Shown one piece after another: positions 7,050 to 51,875 of a DNA stretch of 64,000 nucleotides (position 1 is the stretch's first letter; each line of letters starts with the position of its first letter). This DNA is from Candidatus Baltobacteraceae bacterium (lineage in GTDB: Bacteria > Vulcanimicrobiota > Vulcanimicrobiia > Vulcanimicrobiales > Vulcanimicrobiaceae), in the NCBI GenBank assembly GCA_036489885.1, contig DASXEW010000003.1:1612001-1676000 (forward strand), read 5' to 3'. A program made the position numbers and the translations under genes. Below the pieces are notes generated by a model. The model ran no database searches and had not been told where the DNA came from. It saw only the letters and a program-made list of their open reading frames with translations.

Positions 7050-7237
7050 AGGGTCTCTCGTTGTTGCTTGCGATCGCGTTCTTTGTCATCGCAGTGCTCT
7101 ACTGGACCGGGACGCTGCAGATTGCGGCGCACGAGCCCGGGCCGCACCACAAACACGCCGTGCTCTTCGCGGGTCTCGGCATTCTCTGCCTGATCTGGTT
7201 CCGGTTCCAAAGCGCAGCGCCATCGCGAGTCCGATGA
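7046..7237 (+). CDS. Small membrane protein of unknown function
   Basis: A 63-aa protein with two hydrophobic segments (about residues 2-20 and 37-54) separated by a His-rich loop (AAHEPGPHHKHA). It starts in an ATGA overlap with uppP and ends in an ATGA overlap with moaC, so it is almost certainly co-translated. I do not recognise the family. The His cluster could bind a metal, but this is speculation. The overlaps and composition support a real gene. Confidence 0.7.
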   Translation: MKGLSLLLAIAFFVIAVLYWTGTLQIAAHEPGPHHKHAVLFAGLGILCLIWFRFQSAAPSRVR

Positions 7238-7710
7238 GCCGGCCGAGCCACATTGCGCCCGACGGCTCGATCGTGATGGTCGACGTCGGCAGCAAAGCGA
7301 CAACAGAACGCAGCGCGCGCGCACGCGCTGAAGTTCGTCTTGGTGCAAAAGCCGCGCAAGCAGTGCGCGAGGCGACGCTCGAAAAAGGTGACGCGCTCGT
7401 CGCGGCTCAGCTCGCGGGCATCATGGCCGCGAAAGCGACACCAACGTTGATCCCGCTCGCACACCCGATTCCGCTGTCATCGGTCGAGGTCACGTTTTCG
7501 TGGGACGGCGACGTGCTCATCATCGAAACGCGTGCGCGCACCGTTGCGCAAACCGGTGTCGAGATGGAAGCGATGACGGCGGCGAGCGTTGCCGCACTCG
7601 TCGTCTACGACATGACCAAAGCGGTCGACAAAGGCATCTCGATCGAACGAGTCCGTCTTCTCGAGAAGACCGGCGGCAAGAGTGGCAACTGGGAGTCGAA
7701 AAGCTCCTGA
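7234..7710 (+). CDS. moaC: Cyclic pyranopterin monophosphate synthase (MoaC)
   Basis: With MoaA converts GTP to cyclic pyranopterin monophosphate, the first intermediate of molybdenum cofactor. Motifs visible are MVDVGSKATTERSA, IPLAHPIPL (catalytic region), EMEAMTAASVAALVVYD and KAVDKG, whose Lys and Asp are the catalytic pair. Length of 158 aa matches the family. It is coupled to the preceding gene through ATGA and to mog through a CTGA junction. MoaA is not in the window. Confidence 0.95.
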   Translation: MSRPSHIAPDGSIVMVDVGSKATTERSARARAEVRLGAKAAQAVREATLEKGDALVAAQLAGIMAAKATPTLIPLAHPIPLSSVEVTFSWDGDVLIIETRARTVAQTGVEMEAMTAASVAALVVYDMTKAVDKGISIERVRLLEKTGGKSGNWESKSS

Positions 7711-8189
7711 CGTATCGCACCGGCCTGATCGTGCTTTCCGATCGAGCGGCGAGCGGCGAGCGCGCAGACGCCTGCATCCCTGTGATGCGCGAAGTGCTGA
7801 CAGATGCCTACAGTATCGATGAGACGCGTGTGTTGCCCGACGATGCAGCTGCACTTTCGGCAGAGTTAATCGAGCTTGCAGACGATCGACGGCTCGCGTT
7901 GATTTTGACTAGCGGCGGAACGGGACTCGGTCCGCGCGATCGCACGCCGCAGGCGACCTTGGCAATTATCGATTACGAAGTGCCCGGAATGGCCGAGCAG
8001 ATGCGCGCGGCATCCGTTGCGCGCGTACCGACGGCGATGCTCTCGCGTGCGGTTGCCGGCGTGCGTGGGAAGACGCTGATCGTCAATTTGCCCGGCAGCC
8101 CGAAGGCCGTTCGGGAAACCCTCGAGGTGATTCTACCGGTTCTGCCTCACGCGCTCGACCTTCTCACAGGCGACGTCAAAGATGGTTGA
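7707..8189 (+). CDS. mog: Molybdopterin adenylyltransferase (Mog/MoaB fold), probable CTG start
   Basis: Adenylylates molybdopterin before Mo insertion. The 160-aa protein has GLIVLSDRAASGERAD, the MPT-binding motif TSGGTGLGPRDRTP, PGMAEQMR and NLPGSPKAV, and resembles MogA over its full length. The first ATG/GTG/TTG that keeps the frame is GTG 7731, which would remove the first beta strand. CTG 7707 overlaps the moaC stop as CTGA, keeps that strand and has GGGAG at 7691-7695. I therefore infer a CTG start; GTG 7731 is the conservative alternative. The end forms a TTGA junction with the longer folC start option. Confidence 0.88.
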   Translation: MTYRTGLIVLSDRAASGERADACIPVMREVLTDAYSIDETRVLPDDAAALSAELIELADDRRLALILTSGGTGLGPRDRTPQATLAIIDYEVPGMAEQMRAASVARVPTAMLSRAVAGVRGKTLIVNLPGSPKAVRETLEVILPVLPHALDLLTGDVKDG

Positions 8190-47300: not shown

Positions 47301-48173
47301 ATTTTAGGCTTCATCAACCTATTTAAGCCTCCGGGGCCGACGTCGACACAGTTCGGTGCGCGGTTGCGCTGGATTTATCGCAAATCGGGGGAGCCGAAAA
47401 TTGCGATCGGACACGTTGGAACGCTCGATCCGCAAGCTGCCGGCGTTTTGCCGATTGCGCTCGGGCGAGCGACACGACTGATTCCGTTCATTCCGGACAA
47501 ACGAAAGGCGTACGCGTTCACCCTCGTATTGGGCAGCGCGACCACGACCGGCGATGCGGGCGGCGACGTAATCGAGACGGCTGCCATTCCAAGCGATGCT
47601 CGCGTTCGACTGGAAGCGGCGCTGGACAAGTTCATCGGGCGCGTCGAGCAAGTGCCGCCGATGTTCAGCGCGCTCAAAGTCGAGGGCAAACCGCTTTACA
47701 AGTTCGCGCGTGCCGGCGAAACGATCGAACGCAAGTCGCGTACGATCACCATTTACTCGCTCAACGTGCTGGGTGCCGACGACGCGGCAACGTTCCGGGT
47801 GCGTGTCGCGTGCAGCGAAGGCACGTACGTGCGTACGCTCGCCGAAGATCTCGCGAAAGCGATTGGGACGCTCGGCCACGTCGGCGCGCTCTTGCGCGAA
47901 GCCTCCGGTCCGTTCGTCCTTTCGGAAAGCGTTACGCTCGACGAGGTCGCCGCCGATCCGATTGGGACGCTAAAGGCGCCCGAAAGCGTGATTGCGATTC
48001 CGACGGTTGTCCTCGATGGACGCGGGTCGGTCGATTTTCGAGCCGGCCGAATCGTCGCGATGCGTGAACCAGTCGGCGATACGCACGTCTTCGTTCGTGA
48101 CATGACGCGCACGCTCGTCGGCGTCGGTGAGATGCACGGAACGATGTTGGCTCCGCGGAAAGTTTTCGTCTGA
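47301..48173 (+). CDS. truB: tRNA pseudouridine-55 synthase TruB, apparent ATT start
   Basis: Makes pseudouridine 55 in the tRNA T-arm. Motifs are GFINLFKPPGPTST (N-terminus), HVGTLDPQAAGVLPIALGRATR with the catalytic Asp, QVPPMFSALKVEGKPLYKFAR and CSEGTYVRTLAEDL. The first ATG/GTG/TTG in frame is TTG 47364, which would delete the conserved GFINLFKP segment. The frame is open only from 47286, and ATT 47301 falls exactly where the initiator Met of the family is expected, 7 bases after GAGGGA of the repeat. I therefore infer a non-canonical ATT start (290 aa). A MAG assembly fault at the repeat is the main alternative. Confidence 0.85.
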   Translation: MLGFINLFKPPGPTSTQFGARLRWIYRKSGEPKIAIGHVGTLDPQAAGVLPIALGRATRLIPFIPDKRKAYAFTLVLGSATTTGDAGGDVIETAAIPSDARVRLEAALDKFIGRVEQVPPMFSALKVEGKPLYKFARAGETIERKSRTITIYSLNVLGADDAATFRVRVACSEGTYVRTLAEDLAKAIGTLGHVGALLREASGPFVLSESVTLDEVAADPIGTLKAPESVIAIPTVVLDGRGSVDFRAGRIVAMREPVGDTHVFVRDMTRTLVGVGEMHGTMLAPRKVFV

Positions 48174-49093
48174 ACGTACACCACTCGCTTCCAAACGCCG
48201 AGCGCGAACGTCCGCTCGCGCTCGCGATCGGATTCTTTGACGGGTTCCATCGCGGACACCGCGCGATCGTCGCGGCGCTGTTGCGCGAGCGTCGTCCGGG
48301 ATATCGCGCCGCCGTGCTGACGTTTCGCAATCACCCGGCGACGCATCTTCGTCCGTCGGATGTTCCGCCGATGATCTCGACGCTCGAAGAGCGCTTGGAC
48401 AATCTTGCGCGCGCGGGCATCGACGAAGCTTATCTCTTACCGTTCGACGATACGATCGCAAAACTCGACGCGCAGACGTTTCTCGAGAACGTGGTCGCAA
48501 AGAGGATCGGCGTGCGCGTGCTCGTCGTCGGGGAGAATTTCCGCTTTGGTGCGGGCCGCGGCGGCGACGCCGGTTTTGCGCGTGAGCGCATGAGCGCCCT
48601 TGGAATCGGATTCGTCGCGGTTGGGCAGCTCGAAGATCGCGGCGAGCGAATCTCCTCGACGCGAGTTCGGCGCGCGATCGCCGACGGTGACCTCGCACTC
48701 GCCGACGAGCTGCTGGGCGCACCGTACACGTTGCACGGACGCGTCGTCGTGGGTGAAGGGCGCGGCCACGATCTGGGTTTCCCGACTGCGAACTTGGACG
48801 TCTCCGGGGACAAGCTAATCCCGGCCGACGGCGTCTACCGCTGCATCGCGCGTTACGATGGTCGTGACTACGCGGCGCTCCTGTCGATCGGAACGAATCC
48901 GACCTTCGATTCCGGGACGCGGCGGACGACAGAGGTTTGGCTGCGCGACTTCGACGGCACGATCTACGGCGAGCAACTTAGTCTGCGCGAGCTGCGTTTT
49001 CTGAGGGCGCAGCTGCGCTTTGAAAATCCCGAAGCCTTGATCGAGCAGATGCGGGCCGACGTGGCCGCCGTGCCGTATCCTACTATCGCATGA
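48170..49093 (+). CDS. ribF: Bifunctional riboflavin kinase / FAD synthetase RibF, probable CTG start
   Basis: Makes FMN and FAD. The 307-aa protein has the nucleotidyltransferase motif GFFDGFHRGH near residue 22, ISSTRVRRAI, and the kinase domain with GRGHDLGFPTANL, GVYRC and SIGTNPTFD. The first ATG/GTG/TTG in frame, TTG 48281, would remove the essential HxGH motif. CTG 48170 overlaps the truB stop as CTGA, with GGAAAG 7 bases upstream, and gives the expected N-terminus. No other start codon lies between it and the motif, so a CTG start is strongly suggested. Confidence 0.9.
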   Translation: MNVHHSLPNAERERPLALAIGFFDGFHRGHRAIVAALLRERRPGYRAAVLTFRNHPATHLRPSDVPPMISTLEERLDNLARAGIDEAYLLPFDDTIAKLDAQTFLENVVAKRIGVRVLVVGENFRFGAGRGGDAGFARERMSALGIGFVAVGQLEDRGERISSTRVRRAIADGDLALADELLGAPYTLHGRVVVGEGRGHDLGFPTANLDVSGDKLIPADGVYRCIARYDGRDYAALLSIGTNPTFDSGTRRTTEVWLRDFDGTIYGEQLSLRELRFLRAQLRFENPEALIEQMRADVAAVPYPTIA

Positions 49094-49910: not shown

Positions 49911-51875
49911 TTAGGCGGCTTCGACGGTGATTGCTTTCCCGTTGTAACCGACGCGGGCGGTGCTTCCTCCGGGAAGTTCACCGCGTAAGATCGCGCCTGA
50001 GAGCGGTGAGGTAACGCAGCGCGCAATCGTGCGTTGCACGAAGCGCGCTCCACTGCCGGCAGCAATACTTTCTTTCGCGAGAAACCGTCGCGCGTCGGCC
50101 GTGAGATCTAAGACGACGGCCTGCGCGCCAAGCCGCTCGACGAGCGCGCACAGCTGCAATTCTACGATCGCTTCGATCTCGGGGACGCCGAGGGAGCGGA
50201 AGAGCACGGTCTCATCGATTCGGTCGAGCAGCTCTTTGCGCAGGGCCATCTCAAGCTCGCCGATGTCGACGTTGCTGGTCATCACGACCAGTGCATGGCG
50301 AAAATCGATCGTGCGGCCTTTTGCGTCCGTGAGCCGGCCGTCATCGAGAATCTGCAACAAGATCGCGGTAACGTCGGGGTGCGCTTTTTCGACTTCATCG
50401 AACAGTACGACGCAATAGGGCCGCCGGCGCACGGGCTCCGTGAGCTGTCCCGGTTCGTCGTGACCGTGGTAGCCTGGCGGTGCGCCGAGCAGCCGTGAGA
50501 TCGTATGCGTCTCCGTATATTCGCTCATGTCGAGACGCACGAGCGCATCATCGGTGCCGAAGAGAACGTGCGCGAGGGCGCGGGCGAGCTCAGTCTTGCC
50601 GACGCCTGAGGGACCAATGAACAGAAATCCGCCGACCGGTTTGCGCGGGTCTTTCAGCCCGGCGCGCGCGCGGCGAATCGCTTCCGAGACTGCGTGCACG
50701 GCTTCGTGCTGCCCGACAACGCGTGATTCGAGCGAATTCTCGAGCGCCAGTAGGCTACGCGATTCTTCCGCGCTGAGTGTGCCTTGCGGGATCCCAGTCC
50801 AGCGCGAGACGACGTTCGCAATCGTTTGCGCGTCGATGACGCCGGCAGTCCCGGCGAGTGCAGAGGTCGCCGCAGCTTCGTCTACGAGATCGATTGCCTT
50901 GTCCGGAAGAAAGCGGTCGGCGATGTAGCGCGCGGAAAGCGTCGCGGCTGCGACGAGCGCTTCATCGGTGATCCGGACTTGATGGTGGAGTGCGTATTTT
51001 TCGCGCAGGCCGCGTAAGATCGCAATCGTCTGCTCGACCGTCGGTTCATCGACGGCGACGGGCTGGAAGCGCCGCTCGAGCGCCGGATCGCTTTCGACGT
51101 GTTTGCGATATTCGCCAAACGTCGTCGCGCCGATGCATTGCAGCTCACCGCGCGCCAGCTCTGGCTTGATCATCGAAGAAAGATCGAGTGAACCTTCGGC
51201 CGCGCCCGCGCCAACGAGCGTGTGCAGCTCGTCGATGAAGAGAATGACGTCGCGTGAGGCGCGCTTGATCTCATCGAGGATGCGCTTGACGCGGCCTTCG
51301 AATTCGCCGCGATACTTTGTTCCGGCAACGAGCGGACCGAGCGACAGCGCGAGAACGCGCTTGTCGTGGAGGGCGGCTGGAACGCTTCCGGCAACGATGC
51401 GTTGCGCCAGGCCTTCGACCACCGCCGTTTTCCCGACGCCCGGCTCGCCTATCAAAACGGGATTGTTCTTGCTGCGCCGCGCGAGAATCGAGATCACCCG
51501 TTCGATTTCGTCATCGCGTCCGATGACCGGATCGAGCTTACCGGCGCGCGCATCGGCCGTGAGGTCGCGCGAGTACGTAGCCAGCGTCGGCGTTCCGCCG
51601 CGCAAGCGCTTCGTCCATTCGAGCGGATTGGGTGCCGATTGGGCGGGTTCGGAACCGCCCTCTGCGCCACGTGCGTAGCGCTCGAGTGCGAAGGCGAGTC
51701 CACCAAGGATGGCTGCAGCAGCGCCTGCACCGATCAGCGGGCGAAGCGACGCAAGCTTCCGATTTCGCGCGCAAGCCGCGCAGAGGTCGACTTGCGTCCA
51801 GCGTCCGGAGCGCATCGAATAGTCGCGAACGCTCGCGGGCTGAGCCTTACAGGCCTCGCACGTATTTTCGGTCAT
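49911..51875 (-). CDS. Membrane-anchored zinc-finger Clp/Hsp100 AAA+ ATPase (ClpE-like N-terminus)
   Basis: 654-aa protein with two AAA+ modules: Walker A GEPGVGKT (143-150) and GPSGVGKT (421-428), Walker B LFIDELH and VLFDEVE. The N-terminus is not the Clp N repeat domain but a four-Cys zinc finger (Cys6, Cys9, Cys32, Cys35; like ClpE) followed by one membrane segment (about 45-64). The M-domain between the modules is missing ([10 protein letters not shown] runs almost directly into VVSRWTGIP). Only 16 residues separate MTSN from DRID, so the ClpP-binding loop is absent. It probably unfolds or remodels proteins at the membrane without ClpP (inference). Confidence 0.88.

Follow-up and report, generated by a model that had tools for sequence, protein, structure and literature searches.

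The molybdopterin adenylyltransferase gene mog of this genome (G000) probably begins at the CTG codon 7707-7709 of the window, by coupling to the termination of moaC translation at the UGA 7708-7710; the window is the whole stretch of DNA analysed, 64,000 nucleotides in length. CTG 7707 is the best candidate start because it fits the N-terminal boundary of Mog in the family, no usual start codon (ATG, GTG or TTG) is available, and the equivalent of the first downstream GTG, at 7731, is often not a start codon in relatives. The strongest support for putatively relaxed start choice beside stop codons is provided by obg, not by mog: all eight family obg genes whose start lies no more than 11 nt beyond the rpmA stop are devoid of a usual start codon, and each of the 78 that begin further away has one. 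The features discussed are compiled in Table 1.

A probable CTG start for mog at the moaC stop

Positions 7690-7719 of the window read tgggagtcga aaagctcctg acgtatcgca. The upstream gene is moaC, as assigned by Pfam MoaC (3.4e-49) and NCBIfam TIGR00581 (174.8 bits; cut-off 141.5), and its TGA 7708-7710 has two bases in common with the CTG 7707-7709 of the co-directed mog, that is, the −4 nt NTGA geometry. The product read from 7707 matches Pfam MoCF_biosynth (3e-28; 98.8 bits against a cut-off of 26.6), and its membership of the Mog family relies on an NCBIfam PRK09417 score of 158.9 bits, just above the cut-off of 158. No ATG, GTG or TTG occurs in the mog frame from the GTG 7500 (within moaC) to the GTG 7731, and codons −12 to +3 relative to CTG 7707 accordingly hold none.

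Comparison with solved structures places the N-terminus of the protein close to CTG 7707. Of the best solved relatives, 2is8 aligns from query residue 3, 1di6 from residue 2 and 2pbq from residue 6, and the alignment to bacterial Mog chains of known structure mostly begins at residues 2-7, while for gephyrin and Cnx1 chains it begins only at residue 15 or 35-36. Reading from CTG 7707 thus keeps the N-terminal strand complete, as judged from these structures and from 95 family loci. The preliminary description had proposed that this strand is encoded upstream of the first GTG, and both lines of comparison agree with it, a start at GTG 7731 removing the strand.

It had also pointed to a GGGAG in front of the CTG. 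This motif is indeed present at 7691-7695, but it lies 11 nt from the CTG and within the MoaC codons TGG GAG (Trp-Glu), and any of five Shine-Dalgarno-like 4-mers was found in the 20 nt upstream of mog in just 25 of the 95 family loci. The candidate Shine-Dalgarno site is therefore a weak part of the mog case.

Use of another unusual codon, for instance the in-frame CTG 7689 or one beside 7707, is unlikely, even if weak starts leave the exact codon open to some extent. CTG 7689 shares its last base with the start of GGGAG and stems from the MoaC Asn-Trp codons, and both the family boundary of Mog and the overlap with the stop favor 7707.

The moaC-mog junction across the family

A search of the family retrieved Mog in 95 of 99 genomes. 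Leaving out G018, which yielded a Mog fragment of only 24 residues, the junction set comprised 95 loci from 94 genomes, 30 obtained by search and 65 by position, with two contributed by G016. Mog residues 6-13 are strongly conserved throughout these 95 loci, in contrast to the frame upstream of the mog start, which is not. Ninety-three of them have a usual start within codons −7 to +3 of the CTG position; the two exceptions are G000 and the same-genus G001, and when the interval is extended to codons −12 to +3, G000 is the only one left.

In 77 of the 95 loci the moaC stop falls in the register in which it opens a mog codon together with its preceding base, and in 18 in another register. Counting junction letters by place, that is, with the moaC stop within codons −7 to +2 of the CTG position in the mog frame, we scored GTGA at 37 loci, ATGA at 29, CTGA at four, GTAA at two, and CTAA, CTAG and GTAG at one each; in two further loci such letters stand at mog codon +6, and hence are not starts. 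At 66/95 loci the start of mog thus overlaps the moaC stop as GTGA or ATGA, consistent with the initial proposal that the CTGA at 7707-7710 overlaps as ATGA and GTGA do at other junctions. Since ATG or GTG occupies most of these coupled starts, CTG appears to be tolerated, not required, at this position.

Three of the four CTGA junctions (G000, G001 and G084) are CTG cases; in the fourth (G061) an ATG follows directly (TGATG). The check for ATG or GTG in close relatives, suggested at the outset, thus returned CTGA in G001 as well, six bases upstream of the G000 position and with GGCGGAG five bases before the CTG. In G084 (L150), CTGA replaces the GTGA of an otherwise nearly identical junction (L133). 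A fallback GTG exists upstream of the aligned position in both relatives, 11 codons away in G001 and 6 codons away in G084, and is missing from codons −12 to +3 in G000.

A misassembled C at 7707 that masks a genuine ATGA or GTGA is quite improbable. The assembly comprises 4 contigs, but the same-genus G001 also has CTGA at its mog junction and shares with G000 an ACG at obg, and non-canonical obg starts recur in three genera. Even less probable is a start at GTG 7731 that would yield a protein devoid of the first strand. This codon is the first usual one downstream in frame; however, its equivalent is GTG in 55 of the 95 loci and GTC, GTT, GTA, ATC or ATT, none of them a usual start, in the other 40, so that the outcome named as refuting in the first reading of this DNA, relatives consistently beginning there, did not occur. 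The usual starts near the CTG position in nearly all family loci and the alignment of bacterial Mog structures likewise oppose it, and no Shine-Dalgarno-like motif was seen by eye in front of it. Finally, a MoaC-Mog fusion made by −1 frameshifting near the stop would suit the −1 frame of mog relative to moaC and the existence of the fused MoaC/MoaB family PRK03604, which both halves match, but it is very unlikely given scores of 149.4 and 180.5 bits where the cut-off is 285, a moaC stop near the mog start and no fused frame in 95/95 loci, and the absence, by eye, of an X XXY YYZ heptamer from the codons before the TGA (TGG GAG TCG AAA AGC TCC).

Among 80 distant Mog relatives, 56 have a usual start within codons −7 to +3; the remaining 24 have longer N-termini or look fused, and hence are uninformative on the mog start. 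Several distant relatives (L036, L044, L045 and others of L034-L110) carry, by eye, MOSC-like extra sequence directly before the Mog domain.

Predicted non-canonical obg starts lie next to the rpmA stop

Obg was matched in 92 of the 99 family genomes, and its start was read in 88 loci from 87 genomes (30 via search and 58 by position); five genomes were left out, four with a match lacking the N-terminus and G098 with a match from residue 22. The upstream rpmA was found in 86 of these loci, with a distance between the rpmA stop and the obg start of 0-11 nt in eight and of 23-171 nt in 78. None of the eight near loci has ATG, GTG or TTG within codons −12 to +3 of obg. Their starts read as CTG in five (G077, G018, G080, G078 and G016), ACG in two (G000 and G001) and GCG in G079, the true start codon of the latter being the least certain of the eight. 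Six lack any usual codon back to the in-frame stop, and the other two have one only far upstream, at codon −49 in G080 and −17 in G078. The ACG of G001 directly follows an in-frame TAA. All 78 obg genes at 23 nt or more from the rpmA stop, in turn, have a usual start (43 GTG, 32 ATG and 3 TTG), and the two loci in which rpmA was not found begin with GTG and ATG. Nearness to a stop thus goes with relaxed choice of the predicted start.

The near cases belong to three genera (g1, g35 and g5), and in g35 and g5 further members combine a longer gap with a usual start, which makes three origins likely; the counts above treat members of one genus as separate although they do not represent independent cases. 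Among the eight loci, obg stands in differing frames relative to rpmA, which speaks against readthrough as a shared cause. Beyond the family, obg was read in 30 of 40 matched genomes of a phylum sample and has a usual start in all 30 loci; rpmA was found in 24 of them, always at a gap of 38 nt or more. By a simple scan, 61 of the family's 78 long rpmA-obg spacers contain a hairpin with T-rich sequence behind it, whereas the eight short ones are too short to hold one.

A second CTGA junction at truB-ribF

The window contains a second putative CTGA start, that of ribF over the truB TGA. Its product matches both FAD_syn and Flavokinase (Table 1), and the gene has no usual start: an in-frame stop lies 14 codons upstream of 48170 and the next usual codon 37 codons downstream. 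Among 61 genomes, 59 gave a match to RibF, and the start was examined at 30 loci. All 29 other loci have ATG, GTG or TTG within codons −6 to +1, and in 25 of these relatives the start sits at the truB stop as GTGA (17), ATGA (6) or TTGA (2). Together with the same-genus mog junction and the 8/8 against 78/78 split at obg, ribF backs, as far as sequence comparison reaches, the earlier suggestion that termination-coupled initiation tolerates CTG.

Table 1. Coordinates of the genes, junctions and candidate start codons considered. Plain numbers are window positions; L-numbers denote other loci.
Feature	Position	Strand	Basis or remark
moaC, cyclic pyranopterin monophosphate synthase, upstream gene sharing its TGA	7234..7710	+	Pfam, NCBIfam
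CTG in frame, six codons upstream of 7707, disfavored alternative	7689..7691	+	from MoaC Asn-Trp codons
Possible Shine-Dalgarno core GGGAG within moaC, 11 nt upstream of CTG	7691..7695	+	sequence; not conserved
CTGA, proposed mog CTG start over moaC TGA stop	7707..7710	+	sequence
mog, molybdopterin adenylyltransferase, 160 aa from CTG	7707..8189	+	Pfam, NCBIfam, solved relatives
First usual codon in frame downstream (GTG), not accepted as mog start	7731..7733	+	family alignment
Second CTGA, proposed ribF CTG start over truB TGA	48170..48173	+	sequence, relatives
ribF, FAD synthetase/riboflavin kinase	48170..49093	+	Pfam FAD_syn 8.5e-40, Flavokinase 1.6e-35
ClpB-like AAA ATPase, possible CTGA start at 51737 (weak case)	49914..51737	-	upstream stop unconfirmed by coding score
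obg of G000	L182:8250 (G000:C3:628250)		ACG directly after in-frame TAG
ATP-dependent DNA ligase, apparent CTGA start	L177 18871		residue 2 aligns to PRK08224 position 2
ABC ATPase, apparent CTGA start, candidate codon	L190 10049		family models begin at residues 5-8
Nucleotidyltransferase, apparent CTGA start	L189 18949	-	weak model hits from residues 1-3
Acyl-CoA dehydrogenase, start apparently at/beside ATA in ATAG	L176 18655	-	residue 3 aligns to model position 2
DapD-looking gene, start apparently at/beside ATA in ATAG	L195 18937	+	name by eye
Metallo-beta-lactamase-fold gene, without usual start, ACG chosen by eye	L187 9019	+	ACG fits N-terminus

Proposed mechanism and relation to known systems

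We infer re-initiation as the mechanism at the moaC-mog junction. A ribosome finishing moaC would terminate at the UGA 7708-7710, remain on the mRNA and restart on the CUG, two bases of which belong to the stop, with the initiator tRNA placed there. The site would be chosen by its position beside the stop, not by a strong start codon or a Shine-Dalgarno site; the first Mog residue would be fMet, and the yield of Mog may be low yet enough for a cofactor enzyme. Altered decoding was rejected, as far as IF3 and tRNA are concerned, on account of an ordinary IF3 (207.3 bits; cut-off 60) and of a tRNA-Met(CAT) gene with a GGG/CCC anticodon stem, a pattern that we take to be that of initiator-type tRNA; it is the only one of three matches to this pattern, at C3:1698484, to lie in a tRNA gene.

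At obg, a weak start may be favored because, with the terminator lost, it would hold Obg at a low level relative to L27; alternatively, a deletion may have removed the old start, with re-initiation rescuing the gene. The sequences themselves show the link between a near stop and a non-canonical start; the dosage idea is inferred. A broader proposal, which we put forward tentatively and regard as possible but doubtful, is that in this family the upstream stop codon, more than the start codon, would set where the next gene begins, that post-termination ribosomes would accept CUG, ACG, AUA and possibly GCG up to some 11 nt from a stop, and that a weak obg start would replace a lost spacer and terminator in keeping Obg low relative to L27.

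We regard the proposed CTG start at moaC-mog as a variant within termination-coupled initiation and not as a system of its own. NTGA is described as by far the commonest spacing of gene pairs (PMC12548453), and termination-reinitiation is reported as validated for 14 gene pairs in Haloferax volcanii and Escherichia coli (PMC6728339). The moaC-mog pair has the same −4 nt geometry, with a start that shares two bases with the upstream TGA, but here N is C, and neither CUG nor CTG occurs in the main text of these two papers; ACG and ATA beside stops would be an extension not described in their relevant passages. In E. coli, restart at AUGA and GUGA start-stop overlaps after termination at UGA is also on record (PMC9841429). 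There, as proposed for moaC-mog, termination at the UGA within the overlap permits restart at the right start; the role presented in that account, unlike the one considered here, is the correction of initiation errors at usual starts.

Two further systems invite comparison. The bifunctional MoaC/MoaB family PRK03604 has the same two domains in the same order as moaC-mog, although in one fused frame, whereas moaC and mog are two overlapping genes. Rare non-AUG starts are known in bacteria, infC with its AUU being one, and the cases known are isolated ones. An infC-type gene likewise lacks ATG, GTG and TTG and is nonetheless made, as is predicted for Mog, but the present candidates are several genes of one genome, mostly at stop/start junctions.

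CUG is reported to account for 0.024% of bacterial starts, for reasons given as unclear when compared with GUG or UUG, and its efficiency is quoted, from ref. 22 of the same source, as 0.86% of that of AUG (PMC11497404), which counts against a CTG 7707 start. According to passages of the respective papers, CTG was not enriched in a mycobacterial start-codon library (PMC4633059), and the CUG of Caulobacter dnaA, apparently without stop overlap, binds initiation complexes in vitro and is unused in vivo (PMC8443254), a finding that also counts against CTG 7707. One source, in its relevant passages, mentions CUG only for uORFs (PMC5972666), and another reports re-initiation at unusual starts with oocyte injection (PMC4648390). 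Among the open-licence papers best matching our searches, we saw no account of CUG as a start at NTGA overlaps and none of start codons in Eremiobacterota.

If CUG and ACG do suit mainly ribosomes that have just terminated, it would be de novo initiation, and not just codon pairing, that discriminates among start codons. The contrast at obg, with non-canonical starts in 8/8 near and 0/78 distant loci, makes such relaxed post-termination start choice directly testable. In practice, gene finders restricted to ATG, GTG and TTG would misplace or miss starts at junctions of this kind.

Other candidate unusual starts and genome-wide counts

Further candidates were sought in 464 kb of G000, made up of the window and 20 sampled stretches of 20 kb each. 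Codon-score scans for genes lacking usual starts proved noisy and served for candidate finding only. Coding scores back an upstream stop for the ligase, ABC ATPase, nucleotidyltransferase, acyl-CoA dehydrogenase, DapD-looking and metallo-beta-lactamase-fold genes listed in Table 1. The ligase reaches 426.6 bits with PRK08224 (cut-off 296), and the DapD-looking gene has no match in Pfam or NCBIfam. The candidate ACG of the metallo-beta-lactamase-fold gene falls within the last bases of the upstream gene, whose stop follows 19 nt further on. The ClpB-like, IlvA and MFS transporter candidates are weaker, their upstream stop being unconfirmed by coding score; for the transporter, the test used a codon adjoining the CTG. 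By eye, the first segment of the ClpB-like protein is membrane-like; it begins in CTGA, and 44 codons pass without a usual start. Another CTGA lies at a GNAT gene, which, however, also offers a TTG four codons upstream. Genes for birA (L178) and a permease (L179) were also flagged as lacking a usual start, and an ALDH gene (L192) was rejected for its ATG at codon 23.

Plain counts revealed no enrichment of CTGA, which counts against a CTG 7707 start: a usual start within 10 codons was lacking at 4 of 17 CTGA junctions and at 10 of 45 NTAA/NTAG controls, and a stricter count in G000 gave 1/7 and 4/28, respectively, with no CTGA excess. A homology screen picked out 11/126 genes in G000, 8/67 in G086 and 10/69 in G011; after reading by eye, plausible unusual starts numbered about four, two to three and one, respectively. 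Because G000 shows no enrichment by counts and the raw flagged fractions are similar or higher in G086 and G011, unusual starts are possibly a family trait rather than a peculiarity of G000. In the codon-score scan of G086, a single-contig genome of the same family, many flagged frames resemble antisense shadows by eye. Two possible CTGA starts were noticed in this genome, at L262 15206 and L266 10669.
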